NCBI GenBank assembly: GCA_003054495.1
Contig: CP028514.1
Span: 2,186,001 to 2,250,000 of the forward strand
From: Carboxydocella thermautotrophica
GTDB taxonomy: Bacteria > Bacillota > GCA-003054495 > Carboxydocellales > Carboxydocellaceae
Reading direction: 5' to 3'
DNA: 64,000 bases
The notes under the pieces were generated by a model. It was not told the origin of the DNA. It did not search any database and worked only from the letters and a program-made list of their open reading frames with translations. This document shows, one piece after another, positions 6,181 to 32,752 of the stretch. Made by a program: the position numbers and the translations under genes. Each line of letters opens with the position of its first letter. Positions within the stretch are counted from its first letter, which is position 1.

Positions 6181-6451
6181 TGGCCGTGCACCCGGCATTG
6201 AATCCTGCCTCCCAGGCGTTATCCCCGCAGTTAGCTCAGGCCAGGCACTCCCGCGGCACACCCAAGACATCCCTTAGTGCTGCTTCCGTCAGGACCTGAC
6301 ACGGTTCGAGAGCTTGTGTTGCGCAGGACCCAACCGTCCACACCACTTACGGAGACCGGACCCCATGAAACAGACCCGCTGCCGGGCATCGACCCCACTA
6401 TAGCGGATTGTGGGTTACAGGGCACCGCTACCTCCCCATCTAGCACGACCA
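6181..6451 (-). ncRNA. ffs: Signal recognition particle RNA, large type with Alu domain
   Basis: The minus strand carries the 5' Alu-domain signature GGAGGTAGCGGTGCCCTGTA, and the S-domain tip AGGTCCTGACGGAAGCAGCA with its partner around TGTGCCGCGGGAGTGCCTGG. The ends pair: TGGTCGTGC at 6451-6443 with GCACGGCCA at 6189-6181, giving a molecule of about 271 nt, the size of the Bacillus scRNA. It directs FtsY/Ffh-dependent membrane targeting. Exact ends are deduced from pairing and may differ by a few bases. Confidence 0.93.
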
Positions 6452-18496: not shown

Positions 18497-18591
18497 TGGC
18501 GGAGAGAGTGGGATTCGAACCCACGAGACGGGTTTTGGCCCGCCTACTCGATTTCGAGTCGAGCGCCTTCGACCAGCTCGGCCATCTCTCC
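18497..18591 (-). tRNA. tRNA-Ser (anticodon CGA)
   Basis: Cloverleaf with the long variable arm of class II tRNAs; anticodon loop CTCGAAA; acceptor GGAGAGA/TCTCTCC, discriminator G, CCA encoded. Confidence 0.95.
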
Positions 18592-18666
18592 GCATGGCTC
18601 ACGCCCTATATTGTAGCACATTTTTATCAGCTTCACAACTACAAGTTTTGACAACAAAACCCGGGC

Positions 18667-19152
18667 CTAAACCCGGGCATCTTTCTGCTTATTCAGCCTT
18701 AACTTCCGAAAAAACTCTTTCATCAATTCCTGGCATTCCTCCGCCCGCACCCCGGCAGTCACTTCCACCTGATGATTCAAGCCCGGATGCCGGACCAGAT
18801 CCATTAGACTATCTACCGCCCCAGCCTTGGGATCGGCGGCACCATAAACCAGCCGTTCAATGCGGGCCTGGACAATGGCCCCGGCACACATAGGACAGGG
18901 TTCAATCGTTACATACAGGGTAGACTCGGTCAGGCGCCAGCCGCCCAGCCGGCGGGCAGCTTCCCGTATAACCAGCATTTCAGCATGGCCAGTGGGATCC
19001 GGGGCCAGTTCCCGCCAGTTGTGGGCAGCAGCCACTACCTCACCCCGGCGCACCAGCACAGCGCCAATAGGTACTTCCCCCAGGGCCATGGCCTTTCTGG
19101 CCTCAGCCAGGGCCAACCCCATGTAATATGCATCATCGTGCTCCAGCTGCAT
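18667..19152 (-). CDS. tadA: tRNA-specific adenosine deaminase TadA
   Basis: 161 residues. The zinc deaminase centre is complete: H56-A-E58 and P-C86-x-x-C89 (EPCPMCAGA). The family motif EVPIGAVLVRRGEVVAAAHN lies near the N-terminus. TadA converts adenosine to inosine at the wobble position of tRNA-Arg(ACG), and that very tRNA gene lies about 100 bases away at 19249-19325. The protein is of normal length and sits among serine and arginine tRNA genes. Confidence 0.95.
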   Translation of the reverse strand: MQLEHDDAYYMGLALAEARKAMALGEVPIGAVLVRRGEVVAAAHNWRELAPDPTGHAEMLVIREAARRLGGWRLTESTLYVTIEPCPMCAGAIVQARIERLVYGAADPKAGAVDSLMDLVRHPGLNHQVEVTAGVRAEECQELMKEFFRKLRLNKQKDARV

Positions 19153-19167
19153 CGCAATTCCCTCTGA

Positions 19168-19242
19168 TGGTGTCCTCGTCAGGAGTCGAACCTGAATCTA
19201 CCGCTTAGGAGGCGGTTGCACTATCCGTTGTGCTACGAGGAC
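19168..19242 (-). tRNA. tRNA-Arg (anticodon CCT)
   Basis: Full cloverleaf; anticodon loop CTCCTAA within stem ACCGC/GCGGT; encoded CCA. Confidence 0.95.
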
Positions 19243-19248
19243 GGAAAA

Positions 19249-19325
19249 TGGCGCGCCCGGCAGGATTCGAACCTGCGACCACCAGATTCGTAGTCTGTTA
19301 CTCTATCCAGCTGAGCTACGGGCGC
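19249..19325 (-). tRNA. tRNA-Arg (anticodon ACG)
   Basis: Acceptor GCGCCCG/CGGGCGC, anticodon loop CTACGAA, encoded CCA. The A34 is the TadA substrate. Confidence 0.96.
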
Positions 19326-19330
19326 GTAAA

Positions 19331-19425
19331 TGGCGGAGAGAGAGGGATTCGAACCCTCGATACGGGTTTTAGCCCGTATAGTCGCTTAGCAGGCGACCGC
19401 CTTCGACCTACTCGGCCATCTCTCC
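19331..19425 (-). tRNA. tRNA-Ser (anticodon GCT)
   Basis: Class II cloverleaf with long variable arm; anticodon loop CTGCTAA; acceptor GGAGAGA; encoded CCA. Confidence 0.95.
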
Positions 19426-19435
19426 AGCTTCTGAC

Positions 19436-19526
19436 TGGCGGAGGGGGTGGGATTCGAACCCACGGAGCCCGTCAAGGACTCAACGGTTTTCAAGACCGCC
19501 TCCTTAAACCGCTCGGACACCCCTCC
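19436..19526 (-). tRNA. tRNA-Ser (anticodon TGA)
   Basis: Class II cloverleaf; anticodon loop CTTGAAA; acceptor GGAGGGG; encoded CCA. Confidence 0.95.
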
Positions 19527-20837: not shown

Positions 20838-22133
<1,296 letters not shown>

Positions 22134-22256: not shown

Positions 22257-22901
22257 TTATAATGCCTTCTGATCGACATCCCAGATCAGGGAGCCCAGAT
22301 GACAGGTATCATTGAGTTTACTCAGCCGCCAGCGACCATCTGGCAGGTATTCCACCACATTGATACAGGTGTTGTCCTGGCGGAAGAGCCAGAAGTTGGC
22401 CAAATCCATGCCCAGGGCATAACAGAAGAAAGCGCGGATAGTGGCATCATGGCTCAGTACCAGCACCGTCTCCCCGGGATGGCGTTTGGCGATCATCTCC
22501 AGAGCTGCTACTGCCCGATCCTGGACCTGCTTAAGGCATTCCCCGCCCCCGGGCATGGTGATTTGATGGGGAGCGGATTGCCAGATCTCCAGTTCCACTC
22601 CGTATTGTTCCTTTACCTCATGGGCATACAGCCCCTGCCAGCAGCCATGGTGAATTTCCGTCAATCCCTCCACGATTTCCACCGGCAGCTGATGCTTTTC
22701 TGCAGCTTTTTTGGCAGTTTCATAGGCCCGGCTCAGCGGACTGGAATAGACAGCGGTGATGGGTAATTTAGCCAGGGCCTCAGCCAGCCTTTCCGCCTGC
22801 TGCCAGCCCAGCGGAGAAAGTTCAGTGTCCAGCTGGCCCTGATAACGCCCTTCCCGGTTCCAGTTGGTTTCACCATGGCGGGCAAGAATAATTCTGGTCA
22901 T
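22257..22901 (-). CDS. Histidine phosphatase family protein, possible phosphoserine phosphatase
   Basis: 214 residues. The catalytic RHG motif is ARHGETNWN (His9 is the phospho-acceptor), followed by YQGQLDTELSPLG, and the second catalytic His is in VLSHDATIRA. By sequence it could be a phosphoglycerate mutase, alpha-ribazole phosphatase or metal-independent phosphoserine phosphatase; the latter type is known from Hydrogenobacter. As the third gene of an operon with serA and an aminotransferase, and with no SerB in sight, phosphoserine phosphatase is the best inference. Confidence 0.85.
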   Translation of the reverse strand: MTRIILARHGETNWNREGRYQGQLDTELSPLGWQQAERLAEALAKLPITAVYSSPLSRAYETAKKAAEKHQLPVEIVEGLTEIHHGCWQGLYAHEVKEQYGVELEIWQSAPHQITMPGGGECLKQVQDRAVAALEMIAKRHPGETVLVLSHDATIRAFFCYALGMDLANFWLFRQDNTCINVVEYLPDGRWRLSKLNDTCHLGSLIWDVDQKAL

Positions 22902-22930: not shown

Positions 22931-24508
22931 CTATAAAGAAACGAACTTGACATCGATAATGCCATCTATTTTGGCTATTTCTCCTAGAATTGCCTCCGGT
23001 ACCACATTATCCACCGCCAGCACCATCACAGCCCGGCCACCCACCTGTTTGCGGCCCACCTGCATTCCAGCAATGTTGATGTCATGCTCACCAATGAGGG
23101 TGCCCACCCGCCCGATGATCCGGGGCTTATCAATATGGGGGGCAACCAGCATGTAGCCTTCCGGCACCATGTCGATGCGATAACCGTCTATTAAGACGAT
23201 GCGGGCATCATTATCCCGGAAGAGGGTACCGCCAACGGCTTTAGGACAGGGCCCGCCTGTCAGTTTGACGGTAATCAGGTTGGTATAGTCATGGGCCTCT
23301 TCTTCCCTGGTTTCCATGATGCGCAGGCCCCGCCCCTTGGCCAGCTGTACCGCATTGACATAACTGACCGGCACATCACTGTAGGATTCCATAATCCCCT
23401 TGATGATGGCGGTAGTCAGGGGAGCGGTATTGATGCAGGCTACATCCCCGGCATAGGTGATCTCGATATTCTCAAACTCGGAAGTGAGCTGGGAGATAAA
23501 CTTGCCCAGCTTTTCCGCCAGGGCCAGATAAGGTTTAACAACCAGTGCATCTTCTTTGGGAATGGCCGGCATATTCACAGCATTCTGGGCCATGCCGCCC
23601 TGCAGGATGGTGACAATCTCCCGGGCCACATCCAGAGCCACATTGACCTGGGCTTCCTCGGTAGATGCCCCCAGATGCGGGGTAACTACCACATTGGGCA
23701 GTTCAAACAACGGGCTTTCCGTCGTGGGTTCCACTTCAAAGACATCCAGCGCTGCTCCGGCCACCTTACCTGTCTTCAGAGCCTCATACAGATCCTGTTC
23801 ATTGATGATGCCACCGCGGGCAACATTGATAATCCGTACCCCCGGCTTCATTTTGGCCAGGGCTTCCCGGTTAATCAGGTTAACCGTTTCCTTGGTTTTG
23901 GGCAAATGCACGGTGATAAAGTCCGCTTCCCGATAGACATCCTCCAGGGACACCAGTTCCACCCCGATTTCCCGGGCCCGCTCATGGGTGATATAGGGGT
24001 CATAACCGATGACCTTCATGGCAAAGCCCTGGGCCCGTTTGGCCACCGCGGTACCAATCCGCCCCAGCCCAATAACCCCCAGGATTTTATCCCGCAGCTC
24101 CACGCCGGTAAATTCCTTGCGCAGCCATTTCCCCTTTTTCAAGGCCTCATTGGCCTGGGGTACATGGCGAGCCAGGGCCAGCATCAGGGCCAGAGTGTGT
24201 TCAGCCGCGGCAATGGTATTGCCATCGGGAGCATTGACCACAATAATACCATGCTGAGTAGCAGCCTGAACATCGATATTGTCCACCCCGACACCGGCGC
24301 GGCCGATTACCTTCAGGTTTACCCCCGCCGCAATAATGGGGGCAGTGATCTTGGTAGCACTGCGCACCACCACGGCATCATAGGCGGGAATCATCTCCAC
24401 CAGTTGCTGTTCACTCAGCTTTTCCTCGATAACATCCACAGTAAACCCGGGTTCCCGCAAGATATCTATTCCTTTTTCACTGACACCATCTAAGACCAGT
24501 ATCCGCAT
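22931..24508 (-). CDS. serA: D-3-phosphoglycerate dehydrogenase
   Basis: 525 residues, long SerA form. The NAD site is LGVIGLGRIGTAVAKRA (about residues 144-160); substrate and catalytic parts are NVARGGIINE, DVFEVEPTTESPLF and VVTPHLGAST. An intervening domain and a C-terminal ACT domain (LIGEHDINIAGMQVGRK...) follow, the latter usually sensing serine. It catalyses the first step of serine synthesis. It lies 46 bases after the aminotransferase gene and 29 before the phosphatase gene, under the glycine riboswitch/T-box leader. Confidence 0.97.
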   Translation of the reverse strand: MRILVLDGVSEKGIDILREPGFTVDVIEEKLSEQQLVEMIPAYDAVVVRSATKITAPIIAAGVNLKVIGRAGVGVDNIDVQAATQHGIIVVNAPDGNTIAAAEHTLALMLALARHVPQANEALKKGKWLRKEFTGVELRDKILGVIGLGRIGTAVAKRAQGFAMKVIGYDPYITHERAREIGVELVSLEDVYREADFITVHLPKTKETVNLINREALAKMKPGVRIINVARGGIINEQDLYEALKTGKVAGAALDVFEVEPTTESPLFELPNVVVTPHLGASTEEAQVNVALDVAREIVTILQGGMAQNAVNMPAIPKEDALVVKPYLALAEKLGKFISQLTSEFENIEITYAGDVACINTAPLTTAIIKGIMESYSDVPVSYVNAVQLAKGRGLRIMETREEEAHDYTNLITVKLTGGPCPKAVGGTLFRDNDARIVLIDGYRIDMVPEGYMLVAPHIDKPRIIGRVGTLIGEHDINIAGMQVGRKQVGGRAVMVLAVDNVVPEAILGEIAKIDGIIDVKFVSL

Positions 24509-24554: not shown

Positions 24555-25700
24555 TTACCCTTCCAGAAATACCTTCTGGGCGGCAGCCACACCGGCACCC
24601 AGCTGTACCGGATAGCCCACTTCAACCAGGGCCATTTCCAGCGCCCCAATAGCCAGGATAATATCCAGCTTATCGGCATAACCCATGTGGCCGATACGGA
24701 AAATCTTGCCCTTCAGTTTGCCCTGGCCACCGGCAAAAGTCACCCCGTATTTGGTACGTAATACCTTGCGCAGGTCTTCGGTATTGAGCTGGTCATTGCC
24801 CTTAACAGCAGTTACAGTATGGGAAGCTACTTCATCAGCAGCCAGCAACTCCAGGCCCAGTGCTCTGATAGCGGCCCGGGTAGCTTTTGTCATAAGGGCA
24901 TGCCGGGCAAAGACTTCCGGTAAGCCTTCCGCCAGGATCATGTCCAGAGCAGCTTCCAGCCCGTAAAAGAGGGTAACATTGGGAGTCCAGGCGGTATTCC
25001 ACTCCGCCATATTTTTTCTGGCCTGCTTCAGGCAGAAGTAGAAACGGGGAGCTTTGGCCGTCTCCATAGCCTGCCAGGCCTTTTCACTGACACTGACCAG
25101 AGCCAGCCCCGGCGGCAACATCAAGGCCTTCTGGCTACCGGTAACCATGATATCCACCTGCCATTCATCAGTGCGGATATCCATCCCGCCCATGGAGCTG
25201 ACGGCATCCACCAGCAGGACAGCATCGGTTTTGGCCACCAGGGCTCCCAGACCCCCGATATCATTGGTAACACCGGTGGAAGTCTCATTGTGGGTAGCCA
25301 GCACGGCCCGGTACTGATTGGTAGCCAGCTTTTCCTCTACCTGTTTCAAATCAATGGCTTCACCCCAGGGGAACTCCAGAGCATCTACCTCTGCTCCGTA
25401 TAAACGGGCGATTTTGGCAAAACGCTCGCCGAAGTTACCGGTAACCAGGGCCAGTACCTTGTCCCCAGGGCTGATCACATTGGCCACTGCCGTTTCCAGT
25501 CCCCCCGTACCGGACTGGGTGAGAATAAACAGGTCCTTTTCAGTCTGAAAAACCTGTTTGGCCTTTTTAATCAGCCGTTCGTGCAGTTTGGCAAAGTCCC
25601 CACTGCGGTGACCGATCATGGGCCGAATCATGGCCTGCTGGACCGCCGGTGGAATAGGTGTCGGCCCAGGAATCATTAGATACTTTTTGTCCTGCAACAT
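24555..25700 (-). CDS. Class V aminotransferase (alanine/serine-glyoxylate or phosphoserine type)
   Basis: 381 residues from the ATG at 25700, behind a GAGAGGGG site. PLP-enzyme motifs: SGTGGLETAVANV, DAVSSMGGMDIRTDEWQVDI, and the Schiff-base lysine in GSQKALMLPPGLALVS. The family interconverts glyoxylate/glycine with alanine, serine or other donors; several members double as phosphoserine aminotransferases in operons with serA. It is the first gene behind a tandem glycine riboswitch and a serine T-box, which ties it to the glycine-serine node. Substrate choice cannot be read from sequence. Confidence 0.9.
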   Translation of the reverse strand: MLQDKKYLMIPGPTPIPPAVQQAMIRPMIGHRSGDFAKLHERLIKKAKQVFQTEKDLFILTQSGTGGLETAVANVISPGDKVLALVTGNFGERFAKIARLYGAEVDALEFPWGEAIDLKQVEEKLATNQYRAVLATHNETSTGVTNDIGGLGALVAKTDAVLLVDAVSSMGGMDIRTDEWQVDIMVTGSQKALMLPPGLALVSVSEKAWQAMETAKAPRFYFCLKQARKNMAEWNTAWTPNVTLFYGLEAALDMILAEGLPEVFARHALMTKATRAAIRALGLELLAADEVASHTVTAVKGNDQLNTEDLRKVLRTKYGVTFAGGQGKLKGKIFRIGHMGYADKLDIILAIGALEMALVEVGYPVQLGAGVAAAQKVFLEG

Positions 25701-25744: not shown

Positions 25745-26010
25745 AAAAGCTCTCATCCATAAAGCCTCAGCTTTAGGGACGAGAGCTTGTTCCCGCGTTG
25801 CCACCCTAATTGGCCAAAAGGCAATAATATCCCCTTGACCCTCTCGATGCGATAACGGCGCCACCGTATCCACTTACCAGGCCACGGCCCTTCGGTGGAT
25901 CCCCTCCAGGGCGGATTCAGCAGTTCCCAGGACCGGTTCGCACCAACCACCGGCTCTCTTGCCTGTTTCCTGCCTATGTTCCCTTTCAACGGGTTACCCT
26001 TATGAGATGA
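25745..26010 (-). promoter_or_regulatory. T-box riboswitch, likely serine (UCC specifier)
   Basis: The minus strand contains the T-box core AGGGTGGCAACGCGGG (about 25812-25797), the stem I AGAGAGCCGG element and a GAA-UCC-GCC specifier region with UCC at 25915-25913, a serine codon. The terminator pairs AAGCTCTCGTCC with GGATGAGAGCTT and is followed by TTCTATTT. Uncharged tRNA-Ser should favour the antiterminator. The specifier assignment is by eye, but it agrees with the downstream serA operon. Confidence 0.9.
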
Positions 26011-26027
26011 TGGTTAGATGGAATTAT

Positions 26028-26055
26028 AAGAAAGGACCAATCTCCTGATTGGTCC
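26028..26055 (-). terminator. Expression-platform terminator of the glycine riboswitch
   Basis: On the minus strand GGACCAATC (26055-26047), a 4-base loop and GATTGGTCC (26042-26034) are followed by TTTCTTA. It lies between the glycine aptamers and the T-box. Confidence 0.75.
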
Positions 26056-26074
26056 TCTGGTCACTGCTGCTAAA

Positions 26075-26305
26075 AGGGTAAACGAAGCCACAAACGCATC
26101 CTGTCGCTCCCTGTCCTTTTGCCTGAGAGATTGACCTGCCGGCTGGCAGGCTTGCTCCTTCGGCGCCCGGTCTTGCCAGGTCTCTCCAGAGGTCTGTCCG
26201 GTTACAGTACCTGGCTCAAAAGCCACCTGAGAGTTTGAGCGGCATAATACCGCCTTGCCCCTTCGGCGGTAACGGGTAAACCCCGTTACCTTCTTCTGCA
26301 ACCTT
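26075..26305 (-). promoter_or_regulatory. Tandem glycine riboswitch
   Basis: Two glycine aptamers stand in series. The first (about 26300-26186) has CCGCCGAAGGGGCAA, AAACTCTCAGGTGG and ACCGGACAGA; the second (about 26185-26090) has GGCGCCGAAGGAGCAA, AATCTCTCAGGCAAAAGGACAG. These are the conserved glycine-riboswitch cores. In relatives, glycine binding opens expression of downstream genes. Here the output is a terminator at 26028-26055 ahead of a T-box. Confidence 0.92.
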
Positions 26306-26336
26306 CATCCAGAAGCTGTATTCATTTTTGTTTACA

Positions 26337-26365
26337 ATTATACGAAGACAAATGTCTTATGTCAA
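26337..26365 (-). promoter_or_regulatory. Consensus promoter with embedded dyad, upstream of the glycine riboswitch
   Basis: TTGACA (26365-26360), 17-base spacer, TATAAT (26342-26337): a perfect sigma-A promoter. The spacer contains the inverted repeat AAGACA-TT-TGTCTT, a candidate repressor site. Transcription would start near 26330, just before the first aptamer. Confidence 0.85.
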
Positions 26366-26376
26366 GTGACATTCAC

Positions 26377-26946
26377 TTATTTTTTACACAAATCCACAAA
26401 ATACTGATGCAAACGATAATCCTCGGTCAGCTCGGGATGGAAAGCCGCCGCCAGCGCCTTGCCCTGTCGGGCCAGGACGATCTTGTCCTGGAAGGTAGCC
26501 ATTACCTCAACCCCGGAACCAACTCGTTCAATGTAGGGGGCCCGGATGAAAACCGCCCGCAGGGGCTGTGCTCCGATAGCGGGAACCGGCAAATCCACTT
26601 CAAAGCTGTCCACCTGTCGACCATAGGCATTGCGCTTGACAGTCATCTCCATCAAGCCCAGCCGCGGCTGTTCACTGCCCATAATCTCGGTTGCCAGCAG
26701 AATCAAGCCGGCACAGGTTCCAAAAACCGCCATCCCCTGCTGAAAACGCTCCTTGATTTCGGAGAGCAGGCCAAAATCCACCATCAATTTGCCGATGGTA
26801 GTTGATTCACCTCCGGGGATTACCAGCCCCGCCAGCTCTGCCAATTGCTCCTTTTTACGTACTTCAACAACTTCCACACCCAGTTTTTCCAGCACCAGCC
26901 GGTGCTCCCGAAAAGCACCCTGCAGAGCCAATACCCCGATTTTCAT
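26377..26946 (-). CDS. pdxT: Pyridoxal 5'-phosphate synthase glutaminase subunit PdxT
   Basis: 189 residues, class I glutamine amidotransferase. GGESTTIGKLM binds substrate, the nucleophilic Cys lies in FGTCAGLILLA and the His-Glu pair in AAAFHPELTEDYRLHQYF. It releases ammonia that is channelled to PdxS for PLP formation. It follows pdxS directly (one base between), the normal pdxST order. The nearby PLP-dependent aminotransferase operon has its own promoter. Confidence 0.97.
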   Translation of the reverse strand: MKIGVLALQGAFREHRLVLEKLGVEVVEVRKKEQLAELAGLVIPGGESTTIGKLMVDFGLLSEIKERFQQGMAVFGTCAGLILLATEIMGSEQPRLGLMEMTVKRNAYGRQVDSFEVDLPVPAIGAQPLRAVFIRAPYIERVGSGVEVMATFQDKIVLARQGKALAAAFHPELTEDYRLHQYFVDLCKK

Positions 26947-26947
26947 T

Positions 26948-27829
26948 TTACCAGCCCCGATCCTGCATTCTCATTTCTGGAGTAATAGTGGAAATATCGA
27001 TCCCGACCATGGGCTCACCCAGGTCTTTAGAAACTTCCGCCAGCACCTGCGGATCATTGTAGTGGGTTGTGGCAGCTACAATGGCCCGGGCCCGTTTGAC
27101 CGGATCCCCGGATTTGAAGATACCGGAGCCGACGAAAACACCATCACAGCCCAGCTGCATCATCAAAGCTGCATCAGCAGGAGTAGCGATGCCACCAGCA
27201 GCAAAGTTCACCACCGGCAACTTCCCGGTTTTGGCCACTTCCACTACCAGTTCATAGGGAGCGCCCATCTCCTTGGCTGCAGTCATCAATTCTTCCTGAG
27301 GCAGCATCTGCAGACGGCGAATTTCTCCCATCACCGTGCGGAAGTGTTTGACCGCTTCCACCACATTACCGGTACCAGGCTCGCCTTTGGTCCGGATCAT
27401 AGCTGCCCCTTCCCCAATCCGGCGCAGGGCTTCCCCCAGGTTTTTAGCCCCGCAGACGAAGGGTACCTTGAACTCCCATTTATTGATGTGGAATTTATCA
27501 TCCGCAGGAGTGAGGACCTCACTTTCGTCAATATAGTCCACACCCAGGGACTCCAGGATCTGGGCCTCCACAAAATGACCGATTCGGCACTTGGCCATTA
27601 CCGGGATGGTGACCGCATCTTGAATGCGCTTGATTACCGTGGGATCGGCCATGCGAGCAATTCCGCCCGCGGCCCGGATATCGGCCGGTACTTTTTCCAA
27701 AGCCATAACGGCACAGGCGCCCGCTTCCTCAGCGATTTTAGCCTGTTCCGGTGTAGTTACATCCATAATGACGCCGCCTTTCAGCATTTCTGCCAGGCCA
27801 GCTTTAACGCGAAAAGTTCCCCTTTCCAT
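26948..27829 (-). CDS. pdxS: Pyridoxal 5'-phosphate synthase lyase subunit PdxS
   Basis: 293 residues, the standard length. The family's TIM-barrel signatures are present: [62 protein letters not shown], and [31 protein letters not shown]. It condenses ribose-5-phosphate, glyceraldehyde-3-phosphate and ammonia into PLP in a 12-mer with PdxT. Confidence 0.98.
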
Positions 27830-31493: not shown

Positions 31494-31570
31494 CGGGGCG
31501 TAGCGCAGCTTGGTAGCGCACCTGCCTTGGGAGCAGGGGGTCGCAGGTTCGAATCCTGTCGCCCCGACCA
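31494..31570 (+). tRNA. tRNA-Pro (anticodon TGG)
   Basis: Acceptor CGGGGCG/CGCCCCG, anticodon loop CTTGGGA, encoded CCA. Confidence 0.96.
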
Positions 31571-31603
31571 TCGCAATTCCAGGATATAATGCAAGAAAAA
31601 GTG

Positions 31604-31632
31604 TTGACAAACACGGAATGGTTGTGTAAAAT
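31604..31632 (+). promoter_or_regulatory. Second promoter inside the tRNA cluster
   Basis: TTGACA (31604-31609), 17-base spacer, TAAAAT (31627-31632), just before tRNA-Glu. The remaining 13 tRNAs could be transcribed from here. Confidence 0.75.
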
Positions 31633-31646
31633 ACAGAAGTGCATAT

Positions 31647-31722
31647 GGCCCCTTGGTCAAGTGGTCTAAGACACCGCCCTTTCACGGCGGTAACACGGGT
31701 TCGAATCCCGTAGGGGTCACCA
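31647..31722 (+). tRNA. tRNA-Glu (anticodon TTC)
   Basis: Cloverleaf with anticodon loop CTTTCAC in stem CCGCC/GGCGG; encoded CCA. Confidence 0.96.
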
Positions 31723-31726
31723 ACCT

Positions 31727-31802
<76 letters not shown>

Positions 31803-31812
31803 GAATATCTAT

Positions 31813-31898
31813 GGAGGAGTTCCCGAGTGGTCAAAGGGAGCAGACTGTAAATCTGCCGGCTGACGCCTTCGTAGGTTCGAATCCTACCTCCTCCACCA
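31813..31898 (+). tRNA. tRNA-Tyr (anticodon GTA)
   Basis: Class II cloverleaf; anticodon loop CTGTAAA; acceptor GGAGGAG; encoded CCA. Confidence 0.96.
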
Positions 31899-31904
31899 TT
31901 TCGC

Positions 31905-31979
31905 TGGGGTGTAGCCAAGTGGTAAGGCAGCGGACTTTGACTCCGCCATGCGTTGGTTCGAATCCAGCCACCCCAGCCA
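31905..31979 (+). tRNA. tRNA-Gln (anticodon TTG)
   Basis: Acceptor TGGGGTG/CACCCCA, anticodon loop CTTTGAC, encoded CCA. Confidence 0.95.
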
Positions 31980-31989
31980 CTTATTTCGC

Positions 31990-32065
31990 GAGCCATTAGC
32001 TCAGTCGGTAGAGCACCTGACTTTTAATCAGGGTGTCGCTGGTTCGAGTCCAGCATGGCTCACCA
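31990..32065 (+). tRNA. tRNA-Lys (anticodon TTT)
   Basis: Acceptor GAGCCAT/ATGGCTC, anticodon loop CTTTTAA, encoded CCA. Confidence 0.96.
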
Positions 32066-32073
32066 TTATCCGC

Positions 32074-32156
32074 GCGGGTGTGGCGGAATTGGCAGACGCA
32101 CTGGATTTAGGTTCCAGCGGGAAACCGTGGGGGTTCAAGTCCCTCCACCCGCACCA
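32074..32156 (+). tRNA. tRNA-Leu (anticodon TAG)
   Basis: Class II cloverleaf; anticodon loop TTTAGGT; acceptor GCGGGTG/CACCCGC; encoded CCA. Confidence 0.95.
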
Positions 32157-32170
32157 ATTGTGGGCATTAT

Positions 32171-32245
32171 GCGGAAGTGGCTCAGTGGTAGAGCATCGCC
32201 TTGCCAAGGCGAGGGTCGCGGGTTCGAATCCCGTCTTCCGCTCCA
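32171..32245 (+). tRNA. tRNA-Gly (anticodon GCC)
   Basis: Acceptor GCGGAAG/CTTCCGC, anticodon loop TTGCCAA, encoded CCA. Confidence 0.96.
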
Positions 32246-32246
32246 G

Positions 32247-32321
32247 GCGCCCGTAGCTCAGTGGATAGAGCGCAGGTCTCCGGAACCTGGTGCGTAGGTT
32301 CGATTCCTACCGGGCGCACCA
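32247..32321 (+). tRNA. tRNA-Arg (anticodon CCG)
   Basis: Acceptor GCGCCCG/CGGGCGC, anticodon loop CTCCGGA, encoded CCA. Begins one base after tRNA-Gly. Confidence 0.95.
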
Positions 32322-32328
32322 TCAGCTT

Positions 32329-32404
<76 letters not shown>

Positions 32405-32413
32405 GTTTAGCAC

Positions 32414-32504
32414 GGAGAAGTACTCAAGTGGATCAAGAGGCAGCACTGGAAATGCTGTAGGGGGCGCAAGTCCCGCGTGGGTTCGAATCCCACCTTCTCC
32501 GCCA
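32414..32504 (+). tRNA. tRNA-Ser (anticodon GGA)
   Basis: Class II cloverleaf; anticodon loop CTGGAAA; acceptor GGAGAAG; encoded CCA. It reads UCC, the codon used as T-box specifier upstream of the serA operon. Confidence 0.95.
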
Positions 32505-32513
32505 GTTTAAAAT

Positions 32514-32587
32514 GCGGGTGTAGCTCAGTGGTAGAGCCCCAGCCTTCCAAGCTGGTTGCGTGGGTTCGATTCCCATCACCCGCTCCA
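32514..32587 (+). tRNA. tRNA-Gly (anticodon TCC)
   Basis: Acceptor GCGGGTG/CACCCGC, anticodon loop CTTCCAA, encoded CCA. Confidence 0.95.
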
Positions 32588-32594
32588 CTATCAA

Positions 32595-32670
<76 letters not shown>

Positions 32671-32675
32671 AACAC

Positions 32676-32752
<77 letters not shown>

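Follow-up and report, generated by a model that had tools for sequence, protein, structure and literature searches.

A glycine riboswitch tandem and a serine T-box in series ahead of a serine operon in Carboxydocella thermautotrophica: a predicted NOT glycine AND uncharged tRNA-Ser gate

Glycine riboswitches ahead of gcv genes are usually ON switches. In ON-type devices that act through transcription terminators, the 3′ strand of the P1 helix lies within the terminator and glycine prevents termination. Control of serC by glycine riboswitches was described by Kazanov et al. in 2007 (PMC2211319). The closest described systems to the present locus are those of Sherlock et al. (2022, RNA Biol 19:1059, PMC9481103), the available text of which reports two glycine/T box-Ser tandems before serC, serA, and serS. 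These contain two full glycine aptamers, with glycine as the likely OFF input and T box-Ser as the ON input, giving the gate NOT A AND B. The same text describes a ZTP/glycine tandem in Bacillus and Oceanobacillus, also a two-input leader of serine biosynthesis with a predicted glycine OFF input, but with ZTP as the first input, the glycine device second, and no T-box. A glycine and T-box pair is not discussed in the available part of the 2025 survey of contiguous riboswitches (PMC12452182).

The leader described here, from C. thermautotrophica 41T, has an arrangement already published in 2022, as judged from the available text of PMC9481103. It shares with the tandem in that text the two full glycine aptamers, the serine T-box that follows, an operon of the serC/serA/serS type, and the predicted NOT A AND B logic. 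That text gives two examples whereas nine species are found here, and the two sets may overlap. The pairing behind the OFF platform is unstated in the same text while an antiterminator pairing is named here, and the serC of the published tandem is replaced by another aminotransferase in this genome. The present analysis contributes the number of species, a promoter conserved among them, a named antiterminator, a contrasting gcvT riboswitch from this genome, and the replacement of serC.

The window, the whole 64,000-nucleotide stretch that was analysed, carries on its minus strand from 26365 to 25739 a promoter, two glycine aptamers, a first terminator (terminator 1), a T-box, and the T-box terminator, followed by the serine operon (Table 1). 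A preliminary description of this DNA had named the promoter, both aptamers, the T-box with its UCC codon, the two terminators, and the downstream genes, and all of these are present.

Table 1. Features of the serine leader and operon, with the presumed tRNA effector (positions in the window)
Feature	Positions	Strand	Evidence
Promoter TTGACA-17-TATAAT	26337-26365	-	12/12 consensus match (promoter scan)
Glycine aptamer I, divergent	26195-26308	-	RF00504, 47 bits
Glycine aptamer II	26101-26199	-	RF00504, 69.1 bits, E 2.5e-12
Aptamer II P1 5′ strand CCUCUGG, predicted antiterminator 5′ strand	26186-26192	-	Sequence and pairing
CCAGAGG, partner of P1 5′ strand and base of terminator 1 5′ arm	26054-26060	-	Pairing
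Terminator 1, predicted glycine-controlled, then CUUAUAAUU	26031-26058	-	
T-box leader, tRNA-Ser type	25772-25998	-	RF00230, 118 bits
Specifier codon UCC (Ser)	25913-25915	-	Sequence and Rfam alignment
T-box bulge UGGC, complementary to tRNA-Ser 3′ end GCCA	25800-25803	-	Sequence
T-box terminator hairpin, then U-rich tail	25747-25788	-	
Class V aminotransferase, serine/alanine-glyoxylate type, in serC position	24555-25700	-	PF00266
serA, phosphoglycerate dehydrogenase	22931-24508	-	TIGR01327, 683.7 bits
Histidine phosphatase, probable phosphoserine phosphatase, PspA type	22257-22901	-	PF00300; NF045917, 205 bits (cut-off 350)
serS, seryl-tRNA synthetase	20838-22109	-	TIGR00414, 593.7 bits
tRNA-Ser(GGA), presumed T-box effector	32414-32504	+	3′ end GCCA

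Both Rfam covariance models match, and each element exceeds its gathering score (32 bits for RF00504, 93 bits for RF00230). Run at gathering thresholds on the entire window, the models listed aptamer II and the T-box; aptamer I was masked by overlap in this search and was listed in the search of the genome. In the T-box the specifier region reads GAA-UCC-GCC, with UCC complementary to the anticodon of tRNA-Ser(GGA) and the bulge to the 3′ end of the same tRNA. The T-box has a terminator/antiterminator pair, consisting of the antiterminator in the Rfam alignment and the terminator hairpin that follows. In the T-box core (25794-25807), GGCAACGCG replaces the usual GGCACCGCG in this genome (G000) and in G002, G003, G019, and G057, and is a shared variant of serine leaders.

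The polarity of the glycine input is indicated by the position of terminator 1, which begins ~40 bases past P1 and includes none of it. The 5′ base of this terminator, CCAGAGG, is instead complementary to the P1 5′ strand of aptamer II, CCUCUGG. Across the window leader and ten relatives, the complementarity between the P1 5′ strand and the terminator 1 5′ arm spans 7–9 contiguous bases in all but one of the 11; in the exception, G002, the helix contains a single bulge. Transcripts truncated ahead of the terminator 1 3′ arm are predicted to fold into the antiterminator in all 11 (probability 0.95–1.0, with P1 near 0), and the completed terminator displaces it in nine; for G019 and G094, the antiterminator persists in the energy model even with terminator 1 complete. 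When the part downstream of P1 was shuffled, none of 660 shuffles reached the observed pairing. The best-helix complementarity alone is weakly significant against shuffles for each leader (p 0.002–0.18), and the leaders share ancestry. The P1 5′ strand is nearly invariant, and support for the antiterminator comes from one-sided changes (G-U) and conservation, not from compensatory changes. In the window, terminator 1 is followed by an imperfect U-tract (UUUCUUAUAAUU). Since P1 and the antiterminator are mutually exclusive and the antiterminator blocks terminator 1 in these models, the glycine device of the serine leader is predicted to be an OFF switch, with one P1 strand alternating between aptamer and antiterminator.

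With these elements, one transcript starting just downstream of 26337 would have to clear two conditional terminators to reach the serine operon. When glycine is absent, the P1 5′ strand would pair with its downstream partner and block the base of terminator 1, allowing polymerase to pass. Glycine binding would hold P1, leaving the partner free, so that terminator 1 forms and transcription stops. Beyond terminator 1, uncharged tRNA-Ser(GGA) would read UCC and stabilise the T-box antiterminator, while with charged tRNA-Ser the second terminator would form. Expression of serS and the genes of the serine pathway would then require both low glycine and a shortage of serine. The gate is thus predicted to be NOT glycine AND uncharged tRNA-Ser, to which a probability of roughly 0.84 is given; the anatomy, family membership, conservation, and complementarity are observed, and ligand binding, polarity in the cell, and termination efficiencies are inferred. 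This logic agrees with the prediction in the available text of PMC9481103, with glycine OFF and T box-Ser ON.

The preliminary description was upheld on the single promoter, the serial arrangement of two independent sensors, the serine specificity, and the two-input gate, but had made that an AND gate, with glycine causing read-through at terminator 1 and uncharged tRNA-Ser acting at terminator 2, so that the operon would be fully on at abundant glycine and starved serine. Glycine riboswitches of the gcv type are usually ON, and the genome itself contains one such layout before gcvT-gcvH (G000:C1:906470-906679). This riboswitch resembles the serine leader in its tandem glycine aptamers and intrinsic terminator, but its P1 3′ strand is the 5′ arm of the terminator (AGGACAGAG...CUCUGUCCU-UUUUUA), an ON layout in which glycine should prevent termination and the polarity is opposite to that of the serine leader. 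As terminator 1 lacks the P1 3′ strand and has a base complementary to the P1 5′ strand, the platform is of the OFF type and an AND gate with glycine as activator is very unlikely. It would also have an excess of glycine drive serine synthesis, which is hard to justify when serine hydroxymethyltransferase makes serine from glycine. A different doubt concerns the sensor itself, as the tandem may no longer sense glycine, or aptamer II alone may do so, with aptamer I as a structural remnant or a receptor for another ligand. The core of aptamer II is canonical. Aptamer I is divergent at the usual GGAGAG, in place of which most leaders have GCAGAAGA or ACAGAAGA. Its scores in this lineage are low (47, 42.5, 37.9, 36, 33.9, and 32.4 bits), as seen at 26195-26308 and in the serine-type leaders at loci L024, L026, L056, L124, and L128. 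However, it is the strong, canonical aptamer II (64–74 bits) that is joined to the platform, and the inter-aptamer linker is conserved, which makes loss of glycine sensing or sensing by aptamer II alone unlikely. In the gcvT leader of this genome the aptamer strengths are reversed, at 66 then 46 bits.

The predicted NOT glycine AND uncharged tRNA-Ser gate places both devices on one transcript. If a second promoter preceded the T-box, the devices would lie on different transcripts and the operon would be under T-box-only control, a finding that the preliminary description had set against its own reading. A second promoter between the devices is reported for the adenine/T box-Tyr tandems of Clostridium botulinum, and the tail of terminator 1 contains a TATAAT (26028-26023). 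However, no -35 hexamer reaches the scan threshold upstream of this TATAAT; on visual inspection, CAATCA, the hexamer located 17 bases upstream, agrees with TTGACA at 2/6 positions. The promoter scan of the window found no promoter-like site between the glycine device and the T-box, and a perfect TTGACA-17-TATAAT promoter precedes the glycine part in all 11 leaders. A second promoter is therefore very improbable, and the glycine device and T-box appear to share one 5′ UTR before the serine genes, with no gene or promoter between them. The internal dyad ascribed earlier to the promoter (AAGACA-TT-TGTCTT) is present in the spacer of the window promoter, but the spacers of the ten related promoters share no common dyad and a functional role for it was rejected. 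Immediately upstream, in the same orientation, are pdxS-pdxT (26377-27829); 11 bases separate the pdxT stop codon from the -35 hexamer. No terminator was detected from pdxST to the leader, so any read-through from pdxST would also cross both devices.

The operon consists of the aminotransferase, serA, the histidine phosphatase, and serS, the last of which is additional to the genes listed in the preliminary description. The aminotransferase likely starts at the ATG at 25700, which is preceded by GGAGAGG, because the start of the open reading frame at 25760 lies inside the T-box terminator. It scores about 39 bits (38.8–39.6) against the canonical SerC model TIGR01364, for which the cut-off is 443.6, whereas canonical serC at the same position in G002, G003, and G057 scores 507–516 bits. 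No canonical serC was found elsewhere in the genome, where the best TIGR01364 match is the operon aminotransferase, and the only two further full class V enzymes both have strong general PF00266 scores. The closest solved structure is a serine-glyoxylate aminotransferase (6pk1), and the protein also resembles BhcA, below the cut-off. An earlier placement of this enzyme at the glycine-glyoxylate-serine node is not supported, as it occupies the place of serC in relatives and no canonical serC was found elsewhere in the genome. Given this position and the missing serC, phosphoserine aminotransferase is the best guess for its role.

The distribution of the leader was assessed in 300 genomes drawn evenly from the phylum, in which ~100 glycine sites were read; it rests on this sample because class-level searches around the window, G013, G057, and G019 covered 1–7 genomes. 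Among the loci read, the full series of tandem glycine aptamers, terminator, and T-box occurs in nine species from six families by database labels (G000 with the conspecific G001, G002, G003, G019, G057, G013, G094, G128, and G206). The T-boxes of the relatives score 104–139 bits, and the specifier is UCC at the same place in all nine series. Relatives with a readable next gene have canonical serC, and pdxT, with pdxS where read, lies upstream of the leader wherever this was read.

Other relatives carry a single module. In G156 (locus L124) and G181 (L045), a glycine tandem with the OFF platform directly precedes serC with no T-box; both genomes belong to a class that otherwise carries both devices. 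Conversely, in Pelotomaculum and a Desulfotomaculaceae MAG (L013–L015), only a T-box precedes an orthologue of the window aminotransferase, serA, and serS. These T box-Ser leaders are like the window in pdxS-pdxT, the UCC T-box, and the same downstream genes, and differ from it in being without a glycine riboswitch. In Peptococcaceae SCADC1_2_3 (L019), pdxST, the aminotransferase, serA, and a phosphatase are present in the same order, but no glycine riboswitch or T-box exceeds the threshold. Two further glycine and T-box pairs, L074 and L092, were rejected since the T-box motif match falls inside gcvT. The glycine-only and T-box-only relatives imply that the modules come and go separately. The leader, with its glycine veto and response to serine starvation, is probably an old conserved composite that several families of the phylum carry between pdxST and their serine operon, with modules lost or gained separately, and in which Carboxydocella swapped the first gene for an aminotransferase of another subfamily and kept the leader.

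Serine hydroxymethyltransferase interconverts serine and glycine. Plentiful glycine may thus supply serine, so that synthesis from 3-phosphoglycerate can be vetoed, and when glycine is low the T-box would decide by the charging of tRNA-Ser. The leader is of interest as a two-input transcription gate found in nature, the proposed mechanism of which is concrete and can be tested. The genome also offers a matched pair, as glycine should turn the gcvT operon on and the serine operon off, and the relatives with both modules, glycine only, or T-box only allow a test of what the second input adds.

Several other RNA features were recorded in the window. A mir-600 match at 25788-25747 (24 bits against a gathering score of 80) was rejected, as it is the T-box terminator hairpin. 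A bacterial large SRP RNA lies at 6184-6448 on the minus strand (196.9 bits). Four tRNA-Ser genes flank the serine operon within two tRNA gene arrays, at 31494-32752 (14 genes) and 18497-19526 (5 genes).
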